Positions 4,975-57,713 of a DNA stretch of 64,000 nt are shown in pieces (positions within the stretch are counted from its first letter, which is position 1; each line of letters opens with the position of its first letter). A program made the position numbers and the translations under genes. Source of the stretch: Myxococcota bacterium (GTDB taxonomy: Bacteria > Myxococcota_A > UBA796 > UBA9615 > JAKLKC01). The stretch is from positions 1-64,000 of the forward strand of contig JAKLKC010000006.1 in the NCBI GenBank assembly GCA_023150875.1. Reading direction: 5' to 3'. The notes below the pieces were generated by a model, which made no database searches, was not told where the DNA came from, and saw nothing but the letters and a program-made list of their open reading frames with translations.

Positions 4975-6415
4975 AGAGCAGCGACGGGAAGTGAGCCGTC
5001 CTGCTCTGGGGGAGACCTCCGTGCCAGGCATACCTCATGCCTTCCAACACACCGATCCCGTGGAGGGCCCTCTCGGTCAGCGCGTTGGAGAGTCCAAGGA
5101 CCGGCCGGAGGGGGCCGATGGGGAGGCGGGCCAGGGTGGGGATCGCCCTGCCCAGCGCCGGGAAGCGCACCCCCAGGCGGAAGAGGTGGAAGACGTTGAG
5201 GACCTCCTCCTCCCTCTCCACCCGGAAGGACAGCCCCGCGCCCAGGGGCGCCTGCCGGGCGGGATCCCCCTCCCCCAACAGGCTGCCGGCGGCCTCGGCC
5301 GTGGTCCGCAGGGGCGTTCCGTGGAGCGCGCCCACCAGCGTCACCCGGGCGTAGCGCGCCCCCAGCTCCCACGAGAGCCTCATCGCCTGCATGGCCGACT
5401 CCGGGGAGTCTCCCGGTCCCCCCACCATGTTGAGGGTGACGAGGTGGATCCGGTGGCGGCGCAGGCGCTCGGCGACCTCACGGAGCAGGGCGTCGGTGGT
5501 GCCCTTGCGGTACGTCACCCGGCGGGCCTCCTCGTCCCCGACCTCGACGCCGACGCACACGGCGCGGCAGCCGGCGGTGGCGAGGGAGGCGACAGTGCCC
5601 TCGGAGAGGCACTCGGCGAGGGTGTTGCACGTGAAGGGGATGCCGATCTCCCCCGGCCACCGCTCCGCCAGCTCCCGGGCCCACTCGGGGTGGGCGGCGA
5701 AGGCGTCGTCCACGAAGTGGAGCTGGCGCAGGGGCCAGCGGCGGCGGACCTCGCCCACCTCGGCGATCACGCGGCCCACCGACTTGGCCCGGATCCGGCG
5801 CATCCCCCGGCCGTAGAGGGCCTGCACCCCCGCCAGGTAGCAGTGGCCGCAGCCCCGGGAGCACCCGCGGCTGGACAGGAACTTCTTCCAGGAGAGGCCG
5901 GAGAGCCAGGGCCTTCCCTCGTAGTACACGTCCCTGGCCGGCAGGGGCAGGGAGTCCAGATCCTCCGGCGCGGCGGGCGGGGGGGCGTTCACCAGGGCGC
6001 CGTCCCGGAAGGCTACGATGCCGTCGGTCCCCGCCAGGGCCGCGGGATCCTCGCCGCGGTCCATGCCCCGGACCAGGGCGAGGAGGGGGAGCTCCGCCTC
6101 CCCCCGCACGGCGGCGTCGGCGGGGACGAACGACAGCGCCTGGGGCCAGAGGGTGGGGAGGGAGCCCGCCAGCACCACCGGCACCCGGAGGCGGCTCCGA
6201 AGGCGGGGGACGGCCCGGGCCGGGAAGGCGGGGTCCGTCACCGACGAGGGGACGACCACCAGGTCTGGCCGCGCGGCGCGGGCTCCGCGGGCGCCGGGGT
6301 CCTCGGACTCCAGGGCGAGGGAGACATGGTGGCCGTCCGCCCGCAGCACGGCGGCGGCCTCGGCGAGGGCCGGGGACTCGTTGATTCCGTGGTCCTGGAA
6401 GAAGAGGACGCGCAC
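4973..6415 (-). CDS. Radical SAM protein with N-terminal B12-binding-like domain
   Basis: A 480-aa protein. The N-terminal ~130 residues look like the Rossmann fold of cobalamin-binding radical-SAM enzymes, but the classical DxHxxG motif is not evident. The radical-SAM motif is C185-x3-C189-x2-C192 (within RGCSRGCGHCYL). Later segments such as FVDDAF and VTLNMVGGPGDS fit the rest of the SAM barrel. The GTG start at 6415 is preceded by GGGAGG. It follows the second radical-SAM gene after 59 bp on the same strand, so both may be co-transcribed. Reaction and substrate are unknown. Its stop codon abuts the inverted-terminus repeat. Confidence 0.75.
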   Translation of the reverse strand: MRVLFFQDHGINESPALAEAAAVLRADGHHVSLALESEDPGARGARAARPDLVVVPSSVTDPAFPARAVPRLRSRLRVPVVLAGSLPTLWPQALSFVPADAAVRGEAELPLLALVRGMDRGEDPAALAGTDGIVAFRDGALVNAPPPAAPEDLDSLPLPARDVYYEGRPWLSGLSWKKFLSSRGCSRGCGHCYLAGVQALYGRGMRRIRAKSVGRVIAEVGEVRRRWPLRQLHFVDDAFAAHPEWARELAERWPGEIGIPFTCNTLAECLSEGTVASLATAGCRAVCVGVEVGDEEARRVTYRKGTTDALLREVAERLRRHRIHLVTLNMVGGPGDSPESAMQAMRLSWELGARYARVTLVGALHGTPLRTTAEAAGSLLGEGDPARQAPLGAGLSFRVEREEEVLNVFHLFRLGVRFPALGRAIPTLARLPIGPLRPVLGLSNALTERALHGIGVLEGMRYAWHGGLPQSRTAHFPSLL

Positions 6416-6474
6416 CGGTGGGAGATCCTCCCTCGGCCCGGGGGCGCGCAGGGGCCCCGGGGGCGAGGGCCCGG

Positions 6475-8175
6475 TCAGTCCGCCGGGACGAAGTTGTGCT
6501 CGTAGAACGTGGGCGGCTCGTAGGTCCAACCGGCCCGCTGCCGGGCGTCCTCCAGGCGGAGGCGGTGATGGACGTACAGCCCCCCCAAGGTCCCCATCAG
6601 CCGGCTGACGGCGCCGAACTCGGCGTAGACGTCCTTCAACACGGCGTCGATGCGCTGGCGCAGGTCCGGACGGCTGGCGAACCACTTCCGGGCGGCCCAG
6701 AGCGCCGGGGCGTAGGTCGTCGACAGCTCCCGTCCCTCCCAGAGGTAGCGGGCGCGCACCCGCAGGTCGGCGAAGTCCCGGTAGCGGCGCCAGCCCGCCA
6801 GGGTGGTGCGGGCGACCCGGACGATGCTGGGCCCGTTGACCTCGAAGTCCCGCTGGAACGCCCTCTTGAGGAGATCGGTCTCCATGCCCTCGGGGATGTG
6901 GGGGTGGCGGTAGTTGAACCGGAGCTGCCCGTGGGTGTCGGCCAGCCGCCCCCAGTCCTCGCAGTCCGGGTCCTCCAGGGTGCCGTCCCGCCGGTGCTGG
7001 GCGTGGAGGGCGGTGCCCGGGATGGGCGTGTAGAGCATGAACTGGTGGAACTCGGTGTCGTGGCGGACGGCGTGCTCGATGGCCTCGCCGACGTTCTCGG
7101 GGGTGTGGTCTTCCAACCCGATGATGGACGACCCCAGCACGCGGATCCCGTGGGACTGGAGGGTGCGGACCAGGGCCACGGTGTCGGTGCCCTTGAGCTT
7201 GGAGTACTGGCTCTCCTTCCCCTCCAAGCCGATCCAGACCCACGAGATCCCGAGGCGCACGAGCTGGTCGATGCTGTAGGATCGCAGCACCTTCCCCGAC
7301 GAGAAGACGTACAGGGCCCAGGGCTTGCCGTGCTCCTCCATCAGCTCCAGGAGCCGCAGCGCCCTTTTGCGGTGGAGCAGGAAGTTCTCGTCCGCCATGA
7401 AGAACGAGCGGACCTTCATGTCGGCCTCGAGGCCCCGCATGATCTCGAAGAGCTCGTCCCCGGTCTGGTAGAAGTTCACGTAGCTGCCCTTGCCGCCGAA
7501 CATCGCGCTCGTCGCGCAGAAGTTGCAGCCGACGGGGCACCCCACCGAGGGGATCACCGTCGCGGCGACGTCCCCGGGCTTCTCCCGGGCGGTGACTCCC
7601 AGGGCGCGGGTGCCGCTCCCCGAGACGATCCGCGGGTGGCGCACCGGGGCGTCCTCCGCCTCGCCCAGGAAGGAGCGGAACCACCTCACCCCCTCGCCCC
7701 GGACGACGTGGTCGGCGTCGATCCGCCTCTCGATGCCGGGGACGTTGGCGACGTGGCCGCCCACGACGATGGTGGCGTGGGGCTGGTGCTCCCGCACGAG
7801 GCGACACATGTGCTCGACCTTCGCCACGTTGGGGATGATGGCGCCGATCCCGACGATGTCGTATCGGCACGTCTTGAGCTCGTGGACGAAACGGTCCAGG
7901 GTGGGGAAGTCCAGCAGGGTGCAGGGCGCGGCGATGTTCTCCTGGATCATCATCAGGCCCCAGGAGCGGTGAAACATCCGCAGCGAGAACGGCCCCTGCT
8001 CCCGGGTGACCTGGTTGTGATACAGCTCCATGGGGTTCGCGCGCCGGCTCCCGAACTCGTCGTCCTGGGCGTAGGGCCCGAACACGCTGCTCAGCAGCAC
8101 CCGCGCCCGCGTCCCCAGGGGGTGGCGGGACGTCGCGGAGGGGGAGGACCGATCGTCGGCTTCGACGTGGCGCAC
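6475..8175 (-). CDS. B12-binding-domain radical SAM protein
   Basis: A 566-aa protein with a cobalamin-binding-like domain over about residues 60-165 (IVGIGAIIPNVAKVEHM and VVGGHVANVPG) and a radical-SAM core beginning at C213-x3-C217-x2-C220 (SVGCPVGCNFCA). Motifs GLEDHTPENV and YTPIPGTAL are typical of large B12-radical-SAM enzymes that methylate or rearrange lipids and natural products. A family-level function cannot be assigned. ATG start; promoter elements lie at 8229-8256. It is paired with the 4973 gene and with the benzoyl-CoA operon beyond, but no functional link is proven. Confidence 0.8.
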   Translation of the reverse strand: MRHVEADDRSSPSATSRHPLGTRARVLLSSVFGPYAQDDEFGSRRANPMELYHNQVTREQGPFSLRMFHRSWGLMMIQENIAAPCTLLDFPTLDRFVHELKTCRYDIVGIGAIIPNVAKVEHMCRLVREHQPHATIVVGGHVANVPGIERRIDADHVVRGEGVRWFRSFLGEAEDAPVRHPRIVSGSGTRALGVTAREKPGDVAATVIPSVGCPVGCNFCATSAMFGGKGSYVNFYQTGDELFEIMRGLEADMKVRSFFMADENFLLHRKRALRLLELMEEHGKPWALYVFSSGKVLRSYSIDQLVRLGISWVWIGLEGKESQYSKLKGTDTVALVRTLQSHGIRVLGSSIIGLEDHTPENVGEAIEHAVRHDTEFHQFMLYTPIPGTALHAQHRRDGTLEDPDCEDWGRLADTHGQLRFNYRHPHIPEGMETDLLKRAFQRDFEVNGPSIVRVARTTLAGWRRYRDFADLRVRARYLWEGRELSTTYAPALWAARKWFASRPDLRQRIDAVLKDVYAEFGAVSRLMGTLGGLYVHHRLRLEDARQRAGWTYEPPTFYEHNFVPAD

Positions 8176-49426: not shown

Positions 49427-50623
49427 TTGACCTTCTCGCGCCGGATCCCCCAGGACCTCTCGCCCAATCCGCTGGCCGCGTCCGTGGCGGCCCTGCTCGC
49501 CCGGGGGGGCGAGGTCCACGACCTCACCGAGTCGAACCCCACCCGGGTCGGCCTCCCCTACCCCCGCGACGAGATCCTCGCCGCCCTGGCGGACCCCGAG
49601 GTCCTGTCGTACGCGCCGGATCCCCGGGGCAGGCACGAGGCCCGGGAGGCCGTCGCCGCCCGTTCCCTCGCCCTGGGCGTCCGGACCTCCCCCGACGACG
49701 TCGTCCTGACGGCCAGCACCAGCGAGGCATACTCCTGGCTGTTCAAGGTCCTCTGCGACCCCGGGGATCGGGTGCTGGTGCCCCGGCCGGGATACCCCCT
49801 GCTGGACCTGCTGGCCCGGGTCGAGGGGGTGGACCTCGTCCCCTACCCCCTGCGCTACGACGGCACCTGGCACCTGGACCTGCCCGCCCTGCGGGCGGTG
49901 GCGGCGGATCCCCGGACACGGGCGGTGGTGGTGGTGAACCCCAACAACCCGACGGGATCGTTCCTGAAGCGGGACGAGCTGGCCGCCCTGGAGTCTCTCG
50001 CGGCCGGGAGGGATCTGGCCATCGTCTCCGACGAGGTCTTCGCCGAGTACGCCTGGGGGGACGACCCCGACCGCGTGACCACGGTGGCCGGGGAGCGGGG
50101 AGCCCTGGCCTTCTCGCTGGGAGGCCTGTCCAAGACCGCCGGCCTTCCCCAGCTCAAGCTGGGCTGGATCGTCGCCTCCGGCCCCGGGCCGGCCAAGGAA
50201 GAGGCGCTCCGCCGGCTGGAGCTCGTCGCCGACACCTTCCTGTCGGTGGGCGCTCCGGTGCAGGTCGCGGCCCCTCGCCTCCTGGAGCTGACGGCGCCGG
50301 TGCGGGACGCCATCGCCTCGCGGGTACGGCGGAACCGCTCCGCCCTGGAGGCGGCCCTGGCGGGGGCGCCCGGCGCCGCGACGCTCCGGGGCGAGGGGGG
50401 CTGGTACGCGGTCGTGCGGGTCCCCGCCGTGGGGGCCGAGGACGACCTGGTCACCACCCTGCTCCGGGACGACCGGGTCCACGTCCACCCGGGCTGGTTC
50501 TTCGACTTCCCCGGCGGGGTCCACCTGGTGGTGTCCCTGCTTCCCTGCCCCGATCGCTTCGCCGAGGCCGCCTCCCGTCTCGCCGCTCGCCTGGCGGAGT
50601 GGATCGCGGGGGGCGGCCGCTGA
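49427..50623 (+). CDS. PLP-dependent class I aminotransferase
   Basis: A 398-aa fold-type I aminotransferase of the aspartate/alanine family. NPNNPTGS binds cofactor and substrate; the Asp of SDEVFAEY holds the pyridine ring; Schiff-base Lys is in SLGGLSKTAGLPQLKLGW. An Arg near the C-terminus for the substrate carboxylate is not obvious (VVSLLPCPDRF). TTG start with a poor ribosome site; the first conserved residues follow within 15. Substrate unresolved. It sits 25 bp after the lipoprotein gene and convergently to the deiminase gene. Confidence 0.82.
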   Translation: MTFSRRIPQDLSPNPLAASVAALLARGGEVHDLTESNPTRVGLPYPRDEILAALADPEVLSYAPDPRGRHEAREAVAARSLALGVRTSPDDVVLTASTSEAYSWLFKVLCDPGDRVLVPRPGYPLLDLLARVEGVDLVPYPLRYDGTWHLDLPALRAVAADPRTRAVVVVNPNNPTGSFLKRDELAALESLAAGRDLAIVSDEVFAEYAWGDDPDRVTTVAGERGALAFSLGGLSKTAGLPQLKLGWIVASGPGPAKEEALRRLELVADTFLSVGAPVQVAAPRLLELTAPVRDAIASRVRRNRSALEAALAGAPGAATLRGEGGWYAVVRVPAVGAEDDLVTTLLRDDRVHVHPGWFFDFPGGVHLVVSLLPCPDRFAEAASRLAARLAEWIAGGGR

Positions 50624-50640: not shown

Positions 50641-52203
50641 TCAGCTCCCTTCGCGGTACAGCGCCATGGTCATGCAGTGGGGGCCGCCCCGGGCGCGCCC
50701 GAGCTCGCTGCCGTCGATGCAGGCGGCGATCCGCTCCCCCGCCGCCACCGCCTCCCGCGCAGACTCTTCGTCGATCTCCTCCGAGGGCCAGACCCGGAAG
50801 GGCCGGAGGTGCTCCTCGTCGGCCCGCCCCATGACCGCCACACGGGCGGGATCCCGAGCCGCCACGGGTAGTTCCGCCAGGGCGGCATTGGTGAGGCGGT
50901 TGCGCTGGTAGACCACGGCGACACCGGGACCGACGGCGACGGCGTTGCACCCGTCGCACCACTGCTCCCGGTGCTGGTGGGGCCGCCGCGCGCCGCCGCC
51001 CGCCACGAGGGTCAGAGGACGCCCGGGGGTCGACAGGCGCGCCGCCATGGCCCGGCTGAATGGCCCCTCCCACGTCCACCGGACCGGGGCCTCGAAGGGC
51101 GCCGTGAGGTCGCAGGAGACGACGTCCATCTCCTCCCGGGCGCCGGGGAAGGTCAGGGGCGGGAAAGCGAGGGCCAGGCCCCGGTCCACCAGCGTGAACA
51201 CGGTGTCGAGGTGCATCATCGCCCGCCGCCGGGGCAGCTCCACGGCCACCAGCTCGCGGAAGGGGAAGGACTCCGGGTCCAGGCCCCGCAGCAGGCGCAG
51301 CCCCAGGGCCAGGGACTCGGCCCCCCGCCACGTCGTCCTCTCGCCGATCCCGATGGCGACACAGTCGGGGGACAGGGCCATGACGTCGCCCCCCTCGATC
51401 CACGCCGCGCCCCCCGCAGGCGGCATCCGCGCCCCCCCCGTGGGGACTCCGGCGGCGCCCCCACCGGCGTCTTCCCGAGCCACCGGCCGGGGCGCGGGGG
51501 GCGAGAACGCGCCCGGCGCCGCGCCGTCGAAGGGCACCCCCCGGGGCCTCAGCGTGGGCCGCACCGCGAACAGGAAGCGGGCGATGGCGGGCTCGCGCCA
51601 CCGCGCCTCCTTGGCCATGGCGCCGATCACCGCCCCGGCGCCCAGCACCGCCTGGTAGTCCCGGGCGAATATGGCGTTGGGGGCGGGCCCGAGCAGGAAG
51701 AGGGGCTGCTCCGGGTGGGGGCGCTCCGCCGGGAGGCCGCCGATCACCCGCTCCACCAGGGCGTCGACGTCCCCGGAGTCCAGCGACGCCTGGAGCGCCC
51801 CCCGCACCTCCTGGAAGGGGAAGCGGGCGTGGCCGGCGTAGATGGCCTGCTCCGCCTCGCAGATCTGGTCCAGGAGGAGGCCCGCGGCGCCGGTCGCGGC
51901 GGGATCGGCGAACGCGGCCCGCAGCTCATCCCGGACGTCCAGGACCCGGGCCGCCCCACCCGCCGGCCCCGCCCGCATCAGGGTCCCGAGCACCCGCGCG
52001 AACTCCCGGTGCTGGGCGATGGCCCGCTCGGGGCAGAGCACGTCCTCGACCAGGTAGCGATCCCTCTCGTTGGGGGGGACGAGGCTCAGCTCCCGCCCCG
52101 GCGAGCACACCAGGACCCGGTGCAGCCAAGAGACCTCGTCCCGGACGCGCAGCGCTGGGACCTCCCCCTCCGCGCCCGGCCCCGCCCACCCCGCGCCGCT
52201 CAC
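50641..52203 (-). CDS. Arginine deiminase-family enzyme
   Basis: A 520-aa member of the guanidino-group-modifying superfamily. Expected active-site parts are in order: PNAIFARD (substrate Asp), WIEGGDVM (Glu/Asp), MHLDTVFT (His and Asp) and GGPHCMTM with the nucleophile Cys510. WCDGCNAVAVGPGVAVVYQRN precedes the last motif. It would convert arginine to citrulline and ammonia. It is ~110 aa longer than usual ADI, partly from a Pro/Ala/Gly-rich insert near residues 240-275. The GTG start overlaps the stop of its paralogue. Confidence 0.85.
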   Translation of the reverse strand: MSGAGWAGPGAEGEVPALRVRDEVSWLHRVLVCSPGRELSLVPPNERDRYLVEDVLCPERAIAQHREFARVLGTLMRAGPAGGAARVLDVRDELRAAFADPAATGAAGLLLDQICEAEQAIYAGHARFPFQEVRGALQASLDSGDVDALVERVIGGLPAERPHPEQPLFLLGPAPNAIFARDYQAVLGAGAVIGAMAKEARWREPAIARFLFAVRPTLRPRGVPFDGAAPGAFSPPAPRPVAREDAGGGAAGVPTGGARMPPAGGAAWIEGGDVMALSPDCVAIGIGERTTWRGAESLALGLRLLRGLDPESFPFRELVAVELPRRRAMMHLDTVFTLVDRGLALAFPPLTFPGAREEMDVVSCDLTAPFEAPVRWTWEGPFSRAMAARLSTPGRPLTLVAGGGARRPHQHREQWCDGCNAVAVGPGVAVVYQRNRLTNAALAELPVAARDPARVAVMGRADEEHLRPFRVWPSEEIDEESAREAVAAGERIAACIDGSELGRARGGPHCMTMALYREGS

Positions 52204-53924
52204 GGGTACCCCCCCTCGGGGGTGCGGACCAGGGGCATCACCAGGCTCCCAGGACCTCCCCTCGCCCGGCTCAGCTCGTCGCCGGGGAGGAGCAGGGCGA
52301 CGTTCCGGCCGGGAGCGGCCCGGCGCAGCGCCCCGAGGAGGGCGCAGCACGTCAGCCCGTGGAAGCGGCCCCCGGCGTCCAGGATCTCGGCGGCCCCGAC
52401 GCACACCGCCCCCGGGCCCGCCGTGGCGTCCTCGTAGAAGCGCCGGTGCCTCTCGAAGCCCACCAGCACCCCGGGCGCGATCACCAGGGCGTTGAGGGCG
52501 TTGGCCCACACGAGCTGCTGGAGGGCGATCCACCGCTCCGTGGGGTGGGTCCCCGGCGGAACGTCGGACGAGCCGGGGGGAGGCCCGGTCCAAAGGTCCC
52601 ACCCCGGCACCCAGCGCACCTCGGGGGGCGGCGAGGCGATCCCCGCGGCCCGCCATGCCGCCGTGAGGGCCTCGCCGAGCCCGGGACAGGCCCGCAGGCG
52701 CAGCTTGGGCAGGACCTCCACCTCGCCGCCGTCGTCGGGCCCCTCGGGCGGATCCGCCGTGCGTTCCGGCGGGAGGTCGAACACGTAGAAACGGGCACCG
52801 GGGCCGTCGGGGGGCTCCACGAGGGTGCGGTCCACCAGCAGGGTCCGGGGGTCCACCAGCAGCACGCGGGTGTCGAGGTGGCCCGCGTCCTCGCTGGGGT
52901 CCTGGAAGTCCACCACCACCACGGCCCCCACCCCGCTGGGGCGGGGTCCCTCGTCCCCCCCTTCGGGACGGAGGAGGCGGTAGCTCAGCTCGTCGATGGC
53001 GTCCGCCGTGCTCCGGGCGTTGTGGCCGATCAGCACGACGGTCGCGTACCCCCCCTTCCCGTCGGGCCCGGAGACGGGAAGGAGGTTCCCCCCTTCGAGG
53101 GTGAAGTGCCGCCCGGCGGCGACGTGGGCGTTCTCCAGCTCCAGCACGACGCGCTCCGCCTGGGCGGGCCACCCCTCCATCGCCTCGCCCCCGCGGCCCA
53201 ACTCGGCGTGTCCCAGGCGCAGCGCCAGGCGCTCCGCCTCCACCCGGAGGTAGTCGTGGACCCGGCGGTCCATGCGGTGCCGCGCCCGGAAGTCGGGGTC
53301 GAGCCAGAACTTCGCCGAGCCCGACGGTCCGAACGCCTCGTGGCGCTGGAGCACCTCCTCCAGGACCACCTCCTCCTGCAGGCGGACGAGACGGCTCATG
53401 TACCCCTGGACGATGCGGTCCCGCACCACCACGGCGGCGTCCTGCATGAAGATCACGTTGCCCATGGGCGCCAGGTGGAACAGGGCGTCCTCGACCTCGG
53501 CGGAGAAGGAGCCCGTCGCCTCCACCCCCTCGATCAGGGCCCGGGCCACCCGGCGGGGGCTGTCGGCGCGGGCGAGCCGCCCGAACACGTAGGCCGGGGC
53601 CCCGGGGTTCACGGCGTAGACCCGGTCCAGCAGGGCCTCCCGGTCCGGGCGGGAGAGGCGGCCATAGACCTCGGCGAGGAGATCCCCGAACCGGTACACG
53701 GCGATCCCGAAGGCCACCAGCAGCGCCTGGAGGCGCTCGTGCTCGCCCCGGGCCCTCCCGGGGTCCAGCAGGTCGTCGAAGAGGTGCCAGCGGTAGTTGG
53801 CGGGGGTGAGGCGCTCCAGCTCTCGGCCCGGGGTGTGGACCACGCAGGCCCGCAGGCGGTCGGTCTCGCCGGCGACGAAGGGGGCCGAGGGGGTCGGCGG
53901 GGGGCAGCAGGTCGGGGTGGTCAT
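52200..53924 (-). CDS. Arginine deiminase-like pseudoenzyme
   Basis: A 574-aa paralogue of the next gene. It keeps the overall fold signals (PMGNVIFMQD, TLEGGNLL, GHLDTRVLLVD, NALVIAPGVLVGFERHRRFYED) but the catalytic GGPHC reads GGPGS at residues 556-560, so both the His and the nucleophile Cys are gone. The Arg of the FxRD motif is Gln, and EGGD is EGGN. Hydrolysis by the standard mechanism is therefore unlikely. It is co-translated with the intact enzyme (GTGA overlap), which suggests a regulatory or structural partner. It has its own -10 at 53953. Confidence 0.75.
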   Translation of the reverse strand: MTTPTCCPPPTPSAPFVAGETDRLRACVVHTPGRELERLTPANYRWHLFDDLLDPGRARGEHERLQALLVAFGIAVYRFGDLLAEVYGRLSRPDREALLDRVYAVNPGAPAYVFGRLARADSPRRVARALIEGVEATGSFSAEVEDALFHLAPMGNVIFMQDAAVVVRDRIVQGYMSRLVRLQEEVVLEEVLQRHEAFGPSGSAKFWLDPDFRARHRMDRRVHDYLRVEAERLALRLGHAELGRGGEAMEGWPAQAERVVLELENAHVAAGRHFTLEGGNLLPVSGPDGKGGYATVVLIGHNARSTADAIDELSYRLLRPEGGDEGPRPSGVGAVVVVDFQDPSEDAGHLDTRVLLVDPRTLLVDRTLVEPPDGPGARFYVFDLPPERTADPPEGPDDGGEVEVLPKLRLRACPGLGEALTAAWRAAGIASPPPEVRWVPGWDLWTGPPPGSSDVPPGTHPTERWIALQQLVWANALNALVIAPGVLVGFERHRRFYEDATAGPGAVCVGAAEILDAGGRFHGLTCCALLGALRRAAPGRNVALLLPGDELSRARGGPGSLVMPLVRTPEGGYP

Positions 53925-53962: not shown

Positions 53963-54790
53963 CTAGGGCCTCTCCCCCCTCCCCATGCGGGCCTCGATGG
54001 CGTCGATGCAGGGGGGGAGGTCCCGCAGCGCGTCCACCACGAAGTGGGCGCCGGCCTCCCGCAGGCGGGCACGGGCGACGTGGGCCCTCCCCTCCCTCTC
54101 GACCCCGGGGAGGGCCGTCCATTCCGCCGCCGTCAGCCCGATCTCGTTGCCCGTCAGGGCCACGCCCACCGTCCACATGCCCGCCGCGAGGCCGGCCCGG
54201 ACGTCGACCTCGGTGTCCCCCACCGCCACGCACGCCGACGCCGGCCACGCGCCGAGGCGCATCGCCGCCGTCCAGTTCATGTAGGGGGCCGGGCGCCCCT
54301 CGGGGACCTCGCTGGCGGCGACCGCCACGTCCGGCGCGTAGCCCCGGGCCGCCGACGCGGCCCGCAGGACGTCCAGCATCTCGCGGTTGTAGCCCGTCGT
54401 GGACCCGATCCCGATCCCCCTGGCCCGCAGGCCCGCCACCGCCTCCACCACCCCCTCGATGGGCTCGGCGTGGTCCGGCAGGCAGGCGATCTGGAGCCCC
54501 GTGCCCTCGGCGTACATCGCGTCCACGTCGGCGCCCCCCGGCTCCCGGCCGTGGACCCGGGCGAAGGCCGCCCTCACCTCGGGCATGGCGCACATGAGCC
54601 GGACGTGCTCCCGCTTGTGGGTCCCCATGGGGGCCCGCGCCTGGTCCAGGGTGACCGCCACCCCCCGCCGCCGGAACAGCTCCACGAAGACCCCCACCGG
54701 CGCCATGCACCCGTGGTCCACCGTGGTGCCCGCCCAGTCCAGGATCGCCGCCCGCACCCGGGCCTCCCCGCCGTCCGCCCGCGTCCTCAT
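53963..54790 (-). CDS. phnX: Phosphonoacetaldehyde hydrolase
   Basis: A 275-aa HAD-superfamily phosphonatase that splits the C-P bond of phosphonoacetaldehyde to acetaldehyde and phosphate. The nucleophile Asp18 is in LDWAGTTVDHGC. The Schiff-base Lys59 in APMGTHKREHV is the mark of phosphonatase within HAD proteins. GSTTGYNREM and VGDTEVDV are motifs II-III. ATG 54790 is 1 bp after the phnW stop, so both steps of the 2-aminoethylphosphonate route are coupled. Confidence 0.93.
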   Translation of the reverse strand: MRTRADGGEARVRAAILDWAGTTVDHGCMAPVGVFVELFRRRGVAVTLDQARAPMGTHKREHVRLMCAMPEVRAAFARVHGREPGGADVDAMYAEGTGLQIACLPDHAEPIEGVVEAVAGLRARGIGIGSTTGYNREMLDVLRAASAARGYAPDVAVAASEVPEGRPAPYMNWTAAMRLGAWPASACVAVGDTEVDVRAGLAAGMWTVGVALTGNEIGLTAAEWTALPGVEREGRAHVARARLREAGAHFVVDALRDLPPCIDAIEARMGRGERP

Positions 54791-54791
54791 C

Positions 54792-55928
54792 TCAAGCTTC
54801 TCCCTCGCCCGTCCCGGGCGCGCCCGACGGGAGGCCCATGGCCTCCATCACCTCTGCCACGGCGCCGACGAAGCGCCGCAGGTCGTCCGGGAACACCTGG
54901 CCGATGCAGCCGACCCGGAAGGTGGGCGCCCGGGTGAGCTTGCCGGGGTAGATGGCGAAGCCCCTCTCCCTCAGCGCCCGGTAAAACACCTCGAAGGACC
55001 AGGGGCCACCGGGGGCCCGCCAGGTCACGATGATGGGGGCCTGGACCGACGGCGAGAGGAGGGGCACGAAGCCCAAGGCCCCCATCCCCTCCTGGAGCAC
55101 CCGCAGGTTCTCGCGGTAGCGCGCCCCCCTCCCCTCCACGCCCCCCTCGTCGGCGTGCCGTCGCAGGGCCTCGGCCAGGGCCGCCAGCACCTGGACCGGG
55201 GGAGTAAAGCGCCACTGCCCGTTGGCCTCGAACCCCCTCCACTGGTCGTGGAGGTCCAGCGCCAGGGACGGGGAGTTCCCCGCGGCGGCGGCCAGGGCCC
55301 GGGCGCGGGCCACCACGAAGCCCACCCCTGGGACCCCCTCCAGGCACTTGTTCGACGAGGCCACCACCGCCTCGAAGGGCACCGCCTCCGCCCGCAGGGG
55401 CAGGGCCCCGAAGGCGCTCATGGCGTCCACGATCAGGCGCCTCCCCCGGGCCGCCGCCACCGCGGCCACCGCCGGGACGGGGTTCAGGAGTCCGGTGGTG
55501 GTCTCGCAGTGCGCCAGGGCGACGTGGGTGATCCCGGGATCGCCCGCCAGGGCCCGGTCCACCGCCTCGGGGTCCACCGGCCGGTCCTCGGGGCACTCCA
55601 CCGCCGCCACGTCGCGGCCGATCCGCTGGCAGATCTGGCGGATCCGCGCCCCGTAGGCGCCGTTGACGCAGGCCAGCACCTTCCCGCTGCGGGGGACCAG
55701 GGTGCCCAGGGCGGCCTCGACGGCGAAGGTGCCGCTGCCCTGGACCGGCACGCAGGTGTACTCCGGCTCCGCCGCCACCACGGCCACCAGCCTGCGGCGT
55801 ACCTCGGCGTTCAGGGCGACGAACTCGGCGTCCCGGGAGCCCAGGTCCCGGTCCATGGCGCCCCGCACCCCGGCGGACGTGGTCAGGGGGCCGGGGGTCA
55901 GCAGGAGGGGGTCTCGGGAGGGGTCCAT
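54792..55928 (-). CDS. phnW: 2-aminoethylphosphonate--pyruvate aminotransferase
   Basis: A 378-aa class V aminotransferase that moves the amino group of 2-aminoethylphosphonate to pyruvate, giving phosphonoacetaldehyde and alanine. LLTPGPLTTS starts the fold; VQGSGTFAVEAAL binds phosphate; the PLP Lys194 is in SSNKCLEGVPGVGF. The ATG at 55928 has GGAG at the right spacing. An upstream extension of 44 codons is rejected. A TATCCT-like -10 lies ~25 bp upstream. First gene of phnWX, supplying phosphate, carbon and nitrogen. Confidence 0.93.
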   Translation of the reverse strand: MDPSRDPLLLTPGPLTTSAGVRGAMDRDLGSRDAEFVALNAEVRRRLVAVVAAEPEYTCVPVQGSGTFAVEAALGTLVPRSGKVLACVNGAYGARIRQICQRIGRDVAAVECPEDRPVDPEAVDRALAGDPGITHVALAHCETTTGLLNPVPAVAAVAAARGRRLIVDAMSAFGALPLRAEAVPFEAVVASSNKCLEGVPGVGFVVARARALAAAAGNSPSLALDLHDQWRGFEANGQWRFTPPVQVLAALAEALRRHADEGGVEGRGARYRENLRVLQEGMGALGFVPLLSPSVQAPIIVTWRAPGGPWSFEVFYRALRERGFAIYPGKLTRAPTFRVGCIGQVFPDDLRRFVGAVAEVMEAMGLPSGAPGTGEGEA

Positions 55929-56109
55929 GGGGGGCTCCGGGGTTCGGCGGGGACAGGATAGGCGCCCTGCGCTCCCAAGTGGGGCGATGGGGTGAACTCC
56001 TGGGGGCGGTCCGAGCCAGGGGCGCAACCGACCCGCCGGATCGGCGCAGGGGGACTCCATCCGGGCCGGCGGGGGTTATGATGCCCTCACCCCCTCCGAG
56101 GAGCACGAC

Positions 56110-56298: not shown

Positions 56299-56369
56299 CG
56301 GAGGGCCGCCCCGGTGGCGCGGGGCGGCCCGGTGTGTCAGGCTGGTGCCCCGCGCCCCCGGAGCGCCCC

Positions 56370-57713
56370 GTGCCCCCAGCCCCGGCCGCCCTGCCCCGCG
56401 TCCCCTCCCCCACGACCCGCTGGCTCGCCTCCTCCGGCGACCTCGTCCTGTCGGCGTGGGCCATCGTGGCGGCGTTCTCGACGTACTTCTGCATGTACGC
56501 CTTCCGGAAGCCCTTCGCCGTCGCCACCTTCCCCGGCGCCGCCGACCTGCCCCTCCTGCCCCCCCTCGACCTGAAGATCCTGTTCATCCTGTCCCAGGTG
56601 GCGGGCTACTGCGTCTCCAAGTTCCTGGGGATCAAGGTCGTCTCCGAGGTCACCCCGGGGCGCCGGGCCCTGGCGATCCTGGGCTGCATCGGGATCGCCG
56701 AAGCGGCGCTGCTGCTCTTCGCCCTCGTCCCCCCGCCTTGGAACGCCGTGTGCCTGGTCTTGAACGGCCTGCCGCTGGGGATGGTGTGGGGGCTGGTCTT
56801 CGGCTTCCTGGAGGGGAGGCGAGTGACCGACCTGCTGGGGGCGGCCCTCTGCGGCAGCTTCATCGTCGCCAGCGGCTTCGTGAAGACCGTGGGCAAGTGG
56901 CTGCTGGGCCAGGGGATCTCCGAGTACTGGATGCCCGGGCTGACCGGCGCCCTCTTCGTGCCCCCCCTGCTCCTCAGCGTGTGGATGCTGGCGCGCCTGC
57001 CGGCCCCCACCGCCGAGGACGAGCGCCTGCGGGTCAAGCGGGTCCCCATGGACGCCCGGGCCCGCCGCGCCTTCGTCGCCGCCCACGCCCCCGGCCTGGT
57101 CCTGCTGACCGCCGCCTACGTCCTGCTGACCGCCTACCGCGACTTCCGGGACAACTTCGCCCGGGAGCTGTGGGACGCCCTGGGCTACTCCGAGAGCCCC
57201 GCCATCCTGACCACGGCCGAGCTCCCCGTCGCCTTCGGCTCCCTGCTGGCGGTGGCGTGGATGTTCCGGATCCGCAGCAACCGCCGCGCCCTCGCCGCGA
57301 TCCACGCGGTGATGGTGGGCGGCGCCCTGCTGGTGGGCGCCTCGACCCTCGCCTTCCAGGCGGGCCTCATCGGCCCCGCCCCGTGGATGGTGTCGGTGGG
57401 CCTGGGCCTCTACCTGGGCTACGTCCCCTACAACTGCGTGCTCTTCGACCGCCTCATCGCCGCCGTGGGCTCCGCCGCCACGGCAGGCTTCCTCATCACC
57501 TTCGCCGACGCCTTCGGCTACCTGGGCAGTTCCGCCCTGCTCCTCTACAAGAACTTCGGCCAGGCGGACCTGCCGTGGCTCCCCTTCTTCACCGCCTCCA
57601 GCTACGTCACCGCCGCCGGCTGCGCCGTCCTCCTGGTCGCCTCCGGGCTCTGGTTCCACCGCCGCACCCCGGATGCCGCGAAGACCGGCGGAGCGGCACG
57701 GGCGGCGGGCTGA
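56370..57713 (+). CDS. DUF5690-like MFS-type membrane protein
   Basis: A 447-aa polytopic protein with about 12 TM helices. AIVAAFSTYFCMYAFRKPF and SQVAGYCVSKFLGIKVVSEV are typical of DUF5690-type proteins related to the GlpT/UhpC organophosphate-antiporter group, where an Arg in TM1 binds phosphate. R after YAF fits that role. The GTG at 56370 is chosen because CGGAG lies 7 nt upstream; a GTG at 56334 is an alternative. It lies near phnWX but on the other strand, so import of a phosphonate is only a guess. Confidence 0.75.
   Translation: MPPAPAALPRVPSPTTRWLASSGDLVLSAWAIVAAFSTYFCMYAFRKPFAVATFPGAADLPLLPPLDLKILFILSQVAGYCVSKFLGIKVVSEVTPGRRALAILGCIGIAEAALLLFALVPPPWNAVCLVLNGLPLGMVWGLVFGFLEGRRVTDLLGAALCGSFIVASGFVKTVGKWLLGQGISEYWMPGLTGALFVPPLLLSVWMLARLPAPTAEDERLRVKRVPMDARARRAFVAAHAPGLVLLTAAYVLLTAYRDFRDNFARELWDALGYSESPAILTTAELPVAFGSLLAVAWMFRIRSNRRALAAIHAVMVGGALLVGASTLAFQAGLIGPAPWMVSVGLGLYLGYVPYNCVLFDRLIAAVGSAATAGFLITFADAFGYLGSSALLLYKNFGQADLPWLPFFTASSYVTAAGCAVLLVASGLWFHRRTPDAAKTGGAARAAG

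Follow-up and report, generated by a model that had tools for sequence, protein, structure and literature searches.

An arginine deiminase (ADI) paralogue with Ser in place of the nucleophilic Cys, paired with an intact ADI, was confirmed as a real arrangement and not a chance event, as the same three substitutions occur in three orthologous pairs. We see about an even chance that the two genes, ADI_A and ADI_B, are an old module, inherited together, for an arginine deiminase of two components, in which ADI_A would be the regulatory or stabilising partner. The pair lies on the minus strand of the window, the 64,000-nt stretch of Myxococcota bacterium contig JAKLKC010000006.1 analysed here. ADI_A (52200..53924, ATG at 53924) encodes a pseudo-arginine deiminase of 574 aa, and ADI_B (50641..52203, GTG start) encodes a 520-aa arginine deiminase with a complete active site; the span of 50641-53924 given in a preliminary description of this DNA was exact. 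The stop of ADI_A and the start of ADI_B share the 4 bases GTGA (52200..52203, minus strand), and from this sequence the two genes are likely to be translationally coupled. Upstream on the same strand are phnX (phosphonoacetaldehyde hydrolase, 53963..54790; TIGR01422, 319.8 bits vs a cut-off of 220) and phnW (2-aminoethylphosphonate:pyruvate transaminase, 54792..56060; TIGR02326, 457.7 bits vs a cut-off of 400.8), the true start of the latter being probably near 55928. The four genes run head to tail in the order phnW, phnX, ADI_A, ADI_B, with gaps of 1, 38 and -4 bases. phnW would be the first gene of this putative operon, and phnX, 38 bases upstream of ADI_A, is probably on the same transcript as ADI_A. 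A class I/II aminotransferase gene (49427-50623, plus strand) is convergent with ADI_B; its best NCBIfam match is GntC (gamma-hydroxyarginine cyclodehydratase), well below cut-off.

ADI_A and ADI_B are the only PF02274 genes in the 6.9 Mb source genome (E=5e-20 and E=5e-52, respectively). ADI_B passed the PF02274 cut-off, matched solved ADIs by phmmer with E=4e-32, and missed the TIGR01078 equivalog cut-off (198.6 vs 489.1 bits); by sequence it is assigned to the PF02274 family, with an equivalog status that the TIGR01078 score does not certify. The TIGR01078 score of ADI_A was 92 bits against the same cut-off of 489.1. Structure models were built with AlphaFold2 from six sequences, a small input that kept their confidence modest (mean pLDDT 61.7 for ADI_A and 63.6 for ADI_B), and were used for reading the fold only. 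The top PDB matches of the ADI_A model in Foldseek were ADIs (E 2.6e-17, probability 1.00, TM 0.73 normalised by target), and an ADI was likewise the top match of ADI_B (E 2.2e-21, TM 0.66). Judged by PF02274 and the modelled structure, ADI_A is a protein of the pentein/guanidino-modifying fold, with the ADI form of it. Both proteins had been described as exceeding 500 aa, which is true of ADI_A in all three species, whereas the ADI_B orthologues in Byssovorax and Minicystis are shorter than that, at 488 and 485 aa; the surplus length of ADI_B in the window is largely a low-confidence stretch of the model (residues 222-265).

We compared active-site residues in an alignment of ADI_A, ADI_B, about 30 Myxococcota ADI-family proteins and three annotated proteobacterial arc-operon ADIs. 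In PaADI numbering, ADI_B keeps N160, R165, D166, R185, E224, D227, R243, H278, D280, R401, H405 and C406. This set includes all the arginine ligands (Asn160, Arg185, Arg243, Arg401) and the catalytic Cys406, His278, Glu224, Asp166 and Asp280, the last five having equivalents in the window ADI_B and both of its orthologues. The predicted nucleophile of ADI_B, Cys510 (TGC, 50676-50674, minus strand), is intact as previously claimed, and the position of PaADI Cys406 in ADI_A is indeed occupied by Ser560 (AGC, 52247-52245, minus strand). ADI_A keeps N160, D166, R185, E224, R243, H278, D280 and R401 and is altered at R165 (Gln), D227 (Asn) and C406 (Ser). At the H405 position, Gly is found in the window ADI_A and Arg in most other ADIs. 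The nucleophilic Cys of GGxxC, kept in ADI_B and every other ADI compared, is replaced by Ser in all three ADI_A orthologues, which also have in common the changes EGGD>EGGN and FxRD>FMQD. In Byssovorax and Minicystis, the motifs read FMQD, EGGN and GGARS in ADI_A, and FARD, EGGD and GGPHC in ADI_B. The earlier statement that FxRD and EGGD are altered thus applies to the Arg before the Asp and to the last Asp of EGGD, but not to the catalytic Asp and Glu, which are intact.

Among the 52 columns in which the other ADIs do not vary, the three ADI_A proteins all keep 31. Against this background, retention of eight of nine catalytic/substrate residues (P about 0.05 in a hypergeometric calculation done by hand) is only suggestive of preferential conservation of catalytic and ligand residues. 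The family motif HREQW is lost in ADI_A (QQxxW in the window copy), so that the protein may have moved to another ligand or chemistry. All three ADI_A genes encode the Ser by AGC, so that it may have been inherited without selection for Ser itself. On these residues, with the nucleophilic Cys missing in 3/3 orthologues, ADI_A is predicted not to be a catalytic ADI, and as an essential catalytic residue is lost and the loss is conserved across species, we classify it as a pseudoenzyme. The term "catalytically dead" used in the preliminary description is appropriate for ADI chemistry, where the nucleophile is gone, but less so for the arginine site, whose residues look intact. By analogy, ADI_A may be a natural counterpart of the laboratory Cys>Ser/Ala substrate-binding mutants, which its sequence resembles.

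A scan of a 379-genome Myxococcota sample returned one true ADI_A orthologue (E 1.6e-167, with 56% identity in a full-length match), located in the Byssovorax sp. MAG JANYGI010000046 with an ADI directly downstream. A second orthologous pair is present in the complete genome of Minicystis rosea DSM 24000 (CP016211). A genome collection was scanned by two exact peptide patterns only, a procedure by which more distant pairs may be missed; ADI_A alone gave no match in that collection, and plasmids yielded only ordinary ADI-like partial matches. The known pairs are therefore three, from three genera and two Myxococcota classes, and in all of them ADI_A and ADI_B are adjacent with an identical GTGA overlap. 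The check proposed in the preliminary description, a search for the tandem pair with the same substitutions elsewhere, was thus positive in two genomes, and the upstream relatives, in which an intact Cys would have pointed to a merely local mutation, both carry Ser. The pair is rare: the order to which Byssovorax belongs has it in 2 of 184 genomes, the corresponding class in those two alone out of 318, and the class of the window genome in 1 of 71.

ADI_A identity is 54.4% between the window and Byssovorax, 50.8% between the window and Minicystis, and 68.0% between Byssovorax and Minicystis; the corresponding values for ADI_B are 54.1, 55.2, and 65.4%. ADI_A is conserved as well as ADI_B across the same species, which indicates that the pseudo-member is as constrained as the enzyme. 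NG86 dN/dS is approximately 0.4-0.5 for both genes, a value that is uninformative because fourfold sites are near saturation. In the tree, ADI_A and ADI_B are each monophyletic (100/100 support) and both branch as window,(Byssovorax, Minicystis), the pattern that would be expected for joint inheritance. The stem branch of ADI_A is long (2.21 changes per column), and the AU test (p=0.157) spoke neither for nor against ADI_A and ADI_B being sister groups. The split between them is deep, with 24-26% identity within each genome, a level of divergence that rules out recent tandem duplication.

The genomic surroundings of the three pairs differ. The order in Byssovorax is a 300-aa pentein, a 262-aa protein, ADI_A and ADI_B, and in Minicystis the 262-aa protein, ADI_A and ADI_B. 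The former has ArgZ/AgrE and DDAH as relatives (E 1.4e-11) and contains the E, H and C motifs; the 262-aa protein has no Pfam match. The two corresponding genes form a conserved pair at L062 9556-11239 (Byssovorax), L122 6049-7709, L123 5592-7266 and L124 5211-6894, and also occur without ADI_A and ADI_B in other genomes of the Byssovorax family. Elsewhere in its genome, Byssovorax has one more short DDAH-like pentein, in which the Cys is intact (L140, G374 contig C206, about 5680-6555). An arginase-family gene is found approximately 3 kb from the pair in Byssovorax (L062 14070-15185) and approximately 1.6 kb from it in Minicystis (L079 14746-15864); in the window, no such gene was observed next to the pair. 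We found no phnWX near the Byssovorax and Minicystis pairs, and the six same-class genomes examined have phnW-phnX without the ADI pair there. In the window, phnW-phnX (53963-56060, minus strand) is divergent from a gene for a DUF5690 membrane protein (56334-57713, plus strand). The same divergence is seen in two same-class genomes (L127 1450-2748, L128 10227-11600), making DUF5690 a candidate aminoethylphosphonate transporter. No arcC (carbamate kinase) over cut-off was detected in the three pair genomes; among 14 control genomes with matches, two were over cut-off. This argues against the fermentative ADI pathway (arcABC), and membership in an arc fermentation operon was ruled out on this basis. 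The sole constant element across the three contexts is the ADI_A-ADI_B pair itself.

In the mechanism that we propose, ADI_B would be the catalytic subunit, predicted to convert L-arginine to L-citrulline and NH3 via Cys510, His331, Glu270, Asp182 and Asp333. ADI_A shares the fold of ADI_B and retains the residues of the arginine pocket, but its Ser560 would not act as a nucleophile. The catalytic Cys of ADI forms a thiouronium intermediate (PMC11659421). Given that crystals of P. aeruginosa ADI C406A and DDAH C249S hold arginine and citrulline, respectively (PMC11659421), ADI_A may be expected to bind arginine (or citrulline) without turnover. It would most likely join ADI_B in a complex, in a regulatory or stabilising role through which the arginine level could tune ADI_B activity. 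Inactive homologues are known to activate a paralogue via heteromer formation in AdoMetDC and TbPRMT1 (PMC10211241), and by analogy an obligate ADI_A-ADI_B heteromer is plausible. The more specific proposal, a heteromeric arginine deiminase whose catalytic subunit is controlled by a conserved pseudo-ADI that senses arginine through its intact, non-hydrolysing pocket, is tentative, and we hold it to be somewhat more doubtful than not.

Alternatively, ADI_A may be a separate arginine-binding or scaffolding protein (a sensor, a buffer or a moonlighting protein) that shares an operon with ADI_B without forming a complex. The intact arginine-binding residues of ADI_A and its long stem branch are compatible with such a role, and RESC5, which has the DDAH fold without the catalytic Cys and His, performs an unrelated job while keeping substrate-site residues (PMC9980740). 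However, ADI_A has been seen only directly upstream of ADI_B, with the 4-base overlap, in three different contexts, and oligomerisation is known in the family whose fold both proteins share; we regard independent function as unlikely, while giving it more weight than any of the other alternatives. One of these is that ADI_A is an active enzyme with altered chemistry, acting with Ser560 or another nucleophile on a different guanidino or amidino substrate, so that the two proteins would catalyze successive or parallel steps. We know of no pentein with a Ser nucleophile. The residue is Ser, never Ala or Gly, in all three ADI_A proteins, the equivalents of Asp166, Glu224, His278 and Asp280 are retained, and the Byssovorax operon includes a further pentein; in addition, the pentein NnhA has a non-guanidine substrate (PMC11659421). 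Nevertheless, the reaction proceeds via an S-alkylthiouronium and so requires Cys, and engineered Cys>Ser/Ala members of the family serve as inactive, ligand-bound forms (PMC11659421), which makes a change in chemistry distinctly improbable.

The tight packing of phnW, phnX, ADI_A and ADI_B on one strand could instead reflect a role of the pair in 2-aminoethylphosphonate use, for example in guanidino-phosphonate processing. The six phnWX relatives without the pair and the two pairs without phnWX nearby argue otherwise, as does the retention in ADI_B of the ligands for the arginine alpha-carboxylate. We consider this reading very unlikely, and a phosphonate role was discarded as the phnW-phnX linkage is not conserved. 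The missing nucleophile of the window ADI_A could also be taken as a sign of a decaying pseudogene, a local mutation or an assembly error. This has a negligible probability, as full-length genes with the same changes, conserved like ADI_B, are present both in a complete genome and in a MAG obtained independently; the two orthologous pairs rule out local mutation or assembly error. The reading that we prefer is that of a putative two-component arginine deiminase.

ADI is a simple homo-oligomeric enzyme and an arginine-depleting drug candidate. If the proposal is correct, the pair would demonstrate that allosteric control through a pseudo-subunit can arise in this family, and Minicystis rosea DSM 24000, as a strain with a complete genome, makes it directly testable. 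Automatic annotation may label ADI_A as an arginine deiminase despite the missing nucleophile. Our searches of the literature returned no work joining arginine deiminase with phosphonoacetaldehyde hydrolase and nothing relevant joining it with a pseudoenzyme. The arrangement had been put forward as new in the guanidino-modifying family; pseudoenzymes with the pentein fold are in fact known (PADI6, RESC5), whereas the open literature searched yielded no bacterial ADI partnered by a pseudo-ADI.

ArcA structures have been solved from Pseudomonas aeruginosa, Mycoplasma and group A Streptococcus. ADI_A and ADI_B have the fold of ArcA (PF02274/TIGR01078), ADI_B with all the catalytic and arginine-binding residues and ADI_A with all but the nucleophile. 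They differ from ArcA in their large insertions, in scoring below the TIGR01078 cut-off, in the lack of a detected carbamate kinase gene in the three pair genomes, and in the putative use of two different subunits instead of one. Human PADI6 is, like ADI_A, a guanidino-modifying member that no longer has the catalytic Cys and is regarded as enzymatically dead (PMC9174705), but it is eukaryotic, has a role in oocyte structure and is not encoded together with a free-arginine deiminase as a two-gene unit. In Trypanosoma brucei, RESC5 also lost the nucleophile and kept substrate-site residues (PMC9980740); unlike ADI_A, it is an RNA-editing component that lost both Cys and His, and no catalytic pentein partner is noted for it. 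A functional parallel to the proposed pair may be found in trypanosomal AdoMetDC and TbPRMT1, in which the active protein is switched on by a heteromeric association with its inactive homologue (PMC10211241), although the folds are unrelated and the complex, predicted here, is experimental there. Finally, the ArgZ/AgrE arginine dihydrolase and DDAH have the pentein fold in common with the pair and count the Byssovorax 300-aa protein among their relatives, but they constitute a separate branch, and ADI_A and ADI_B are closest to ADI.
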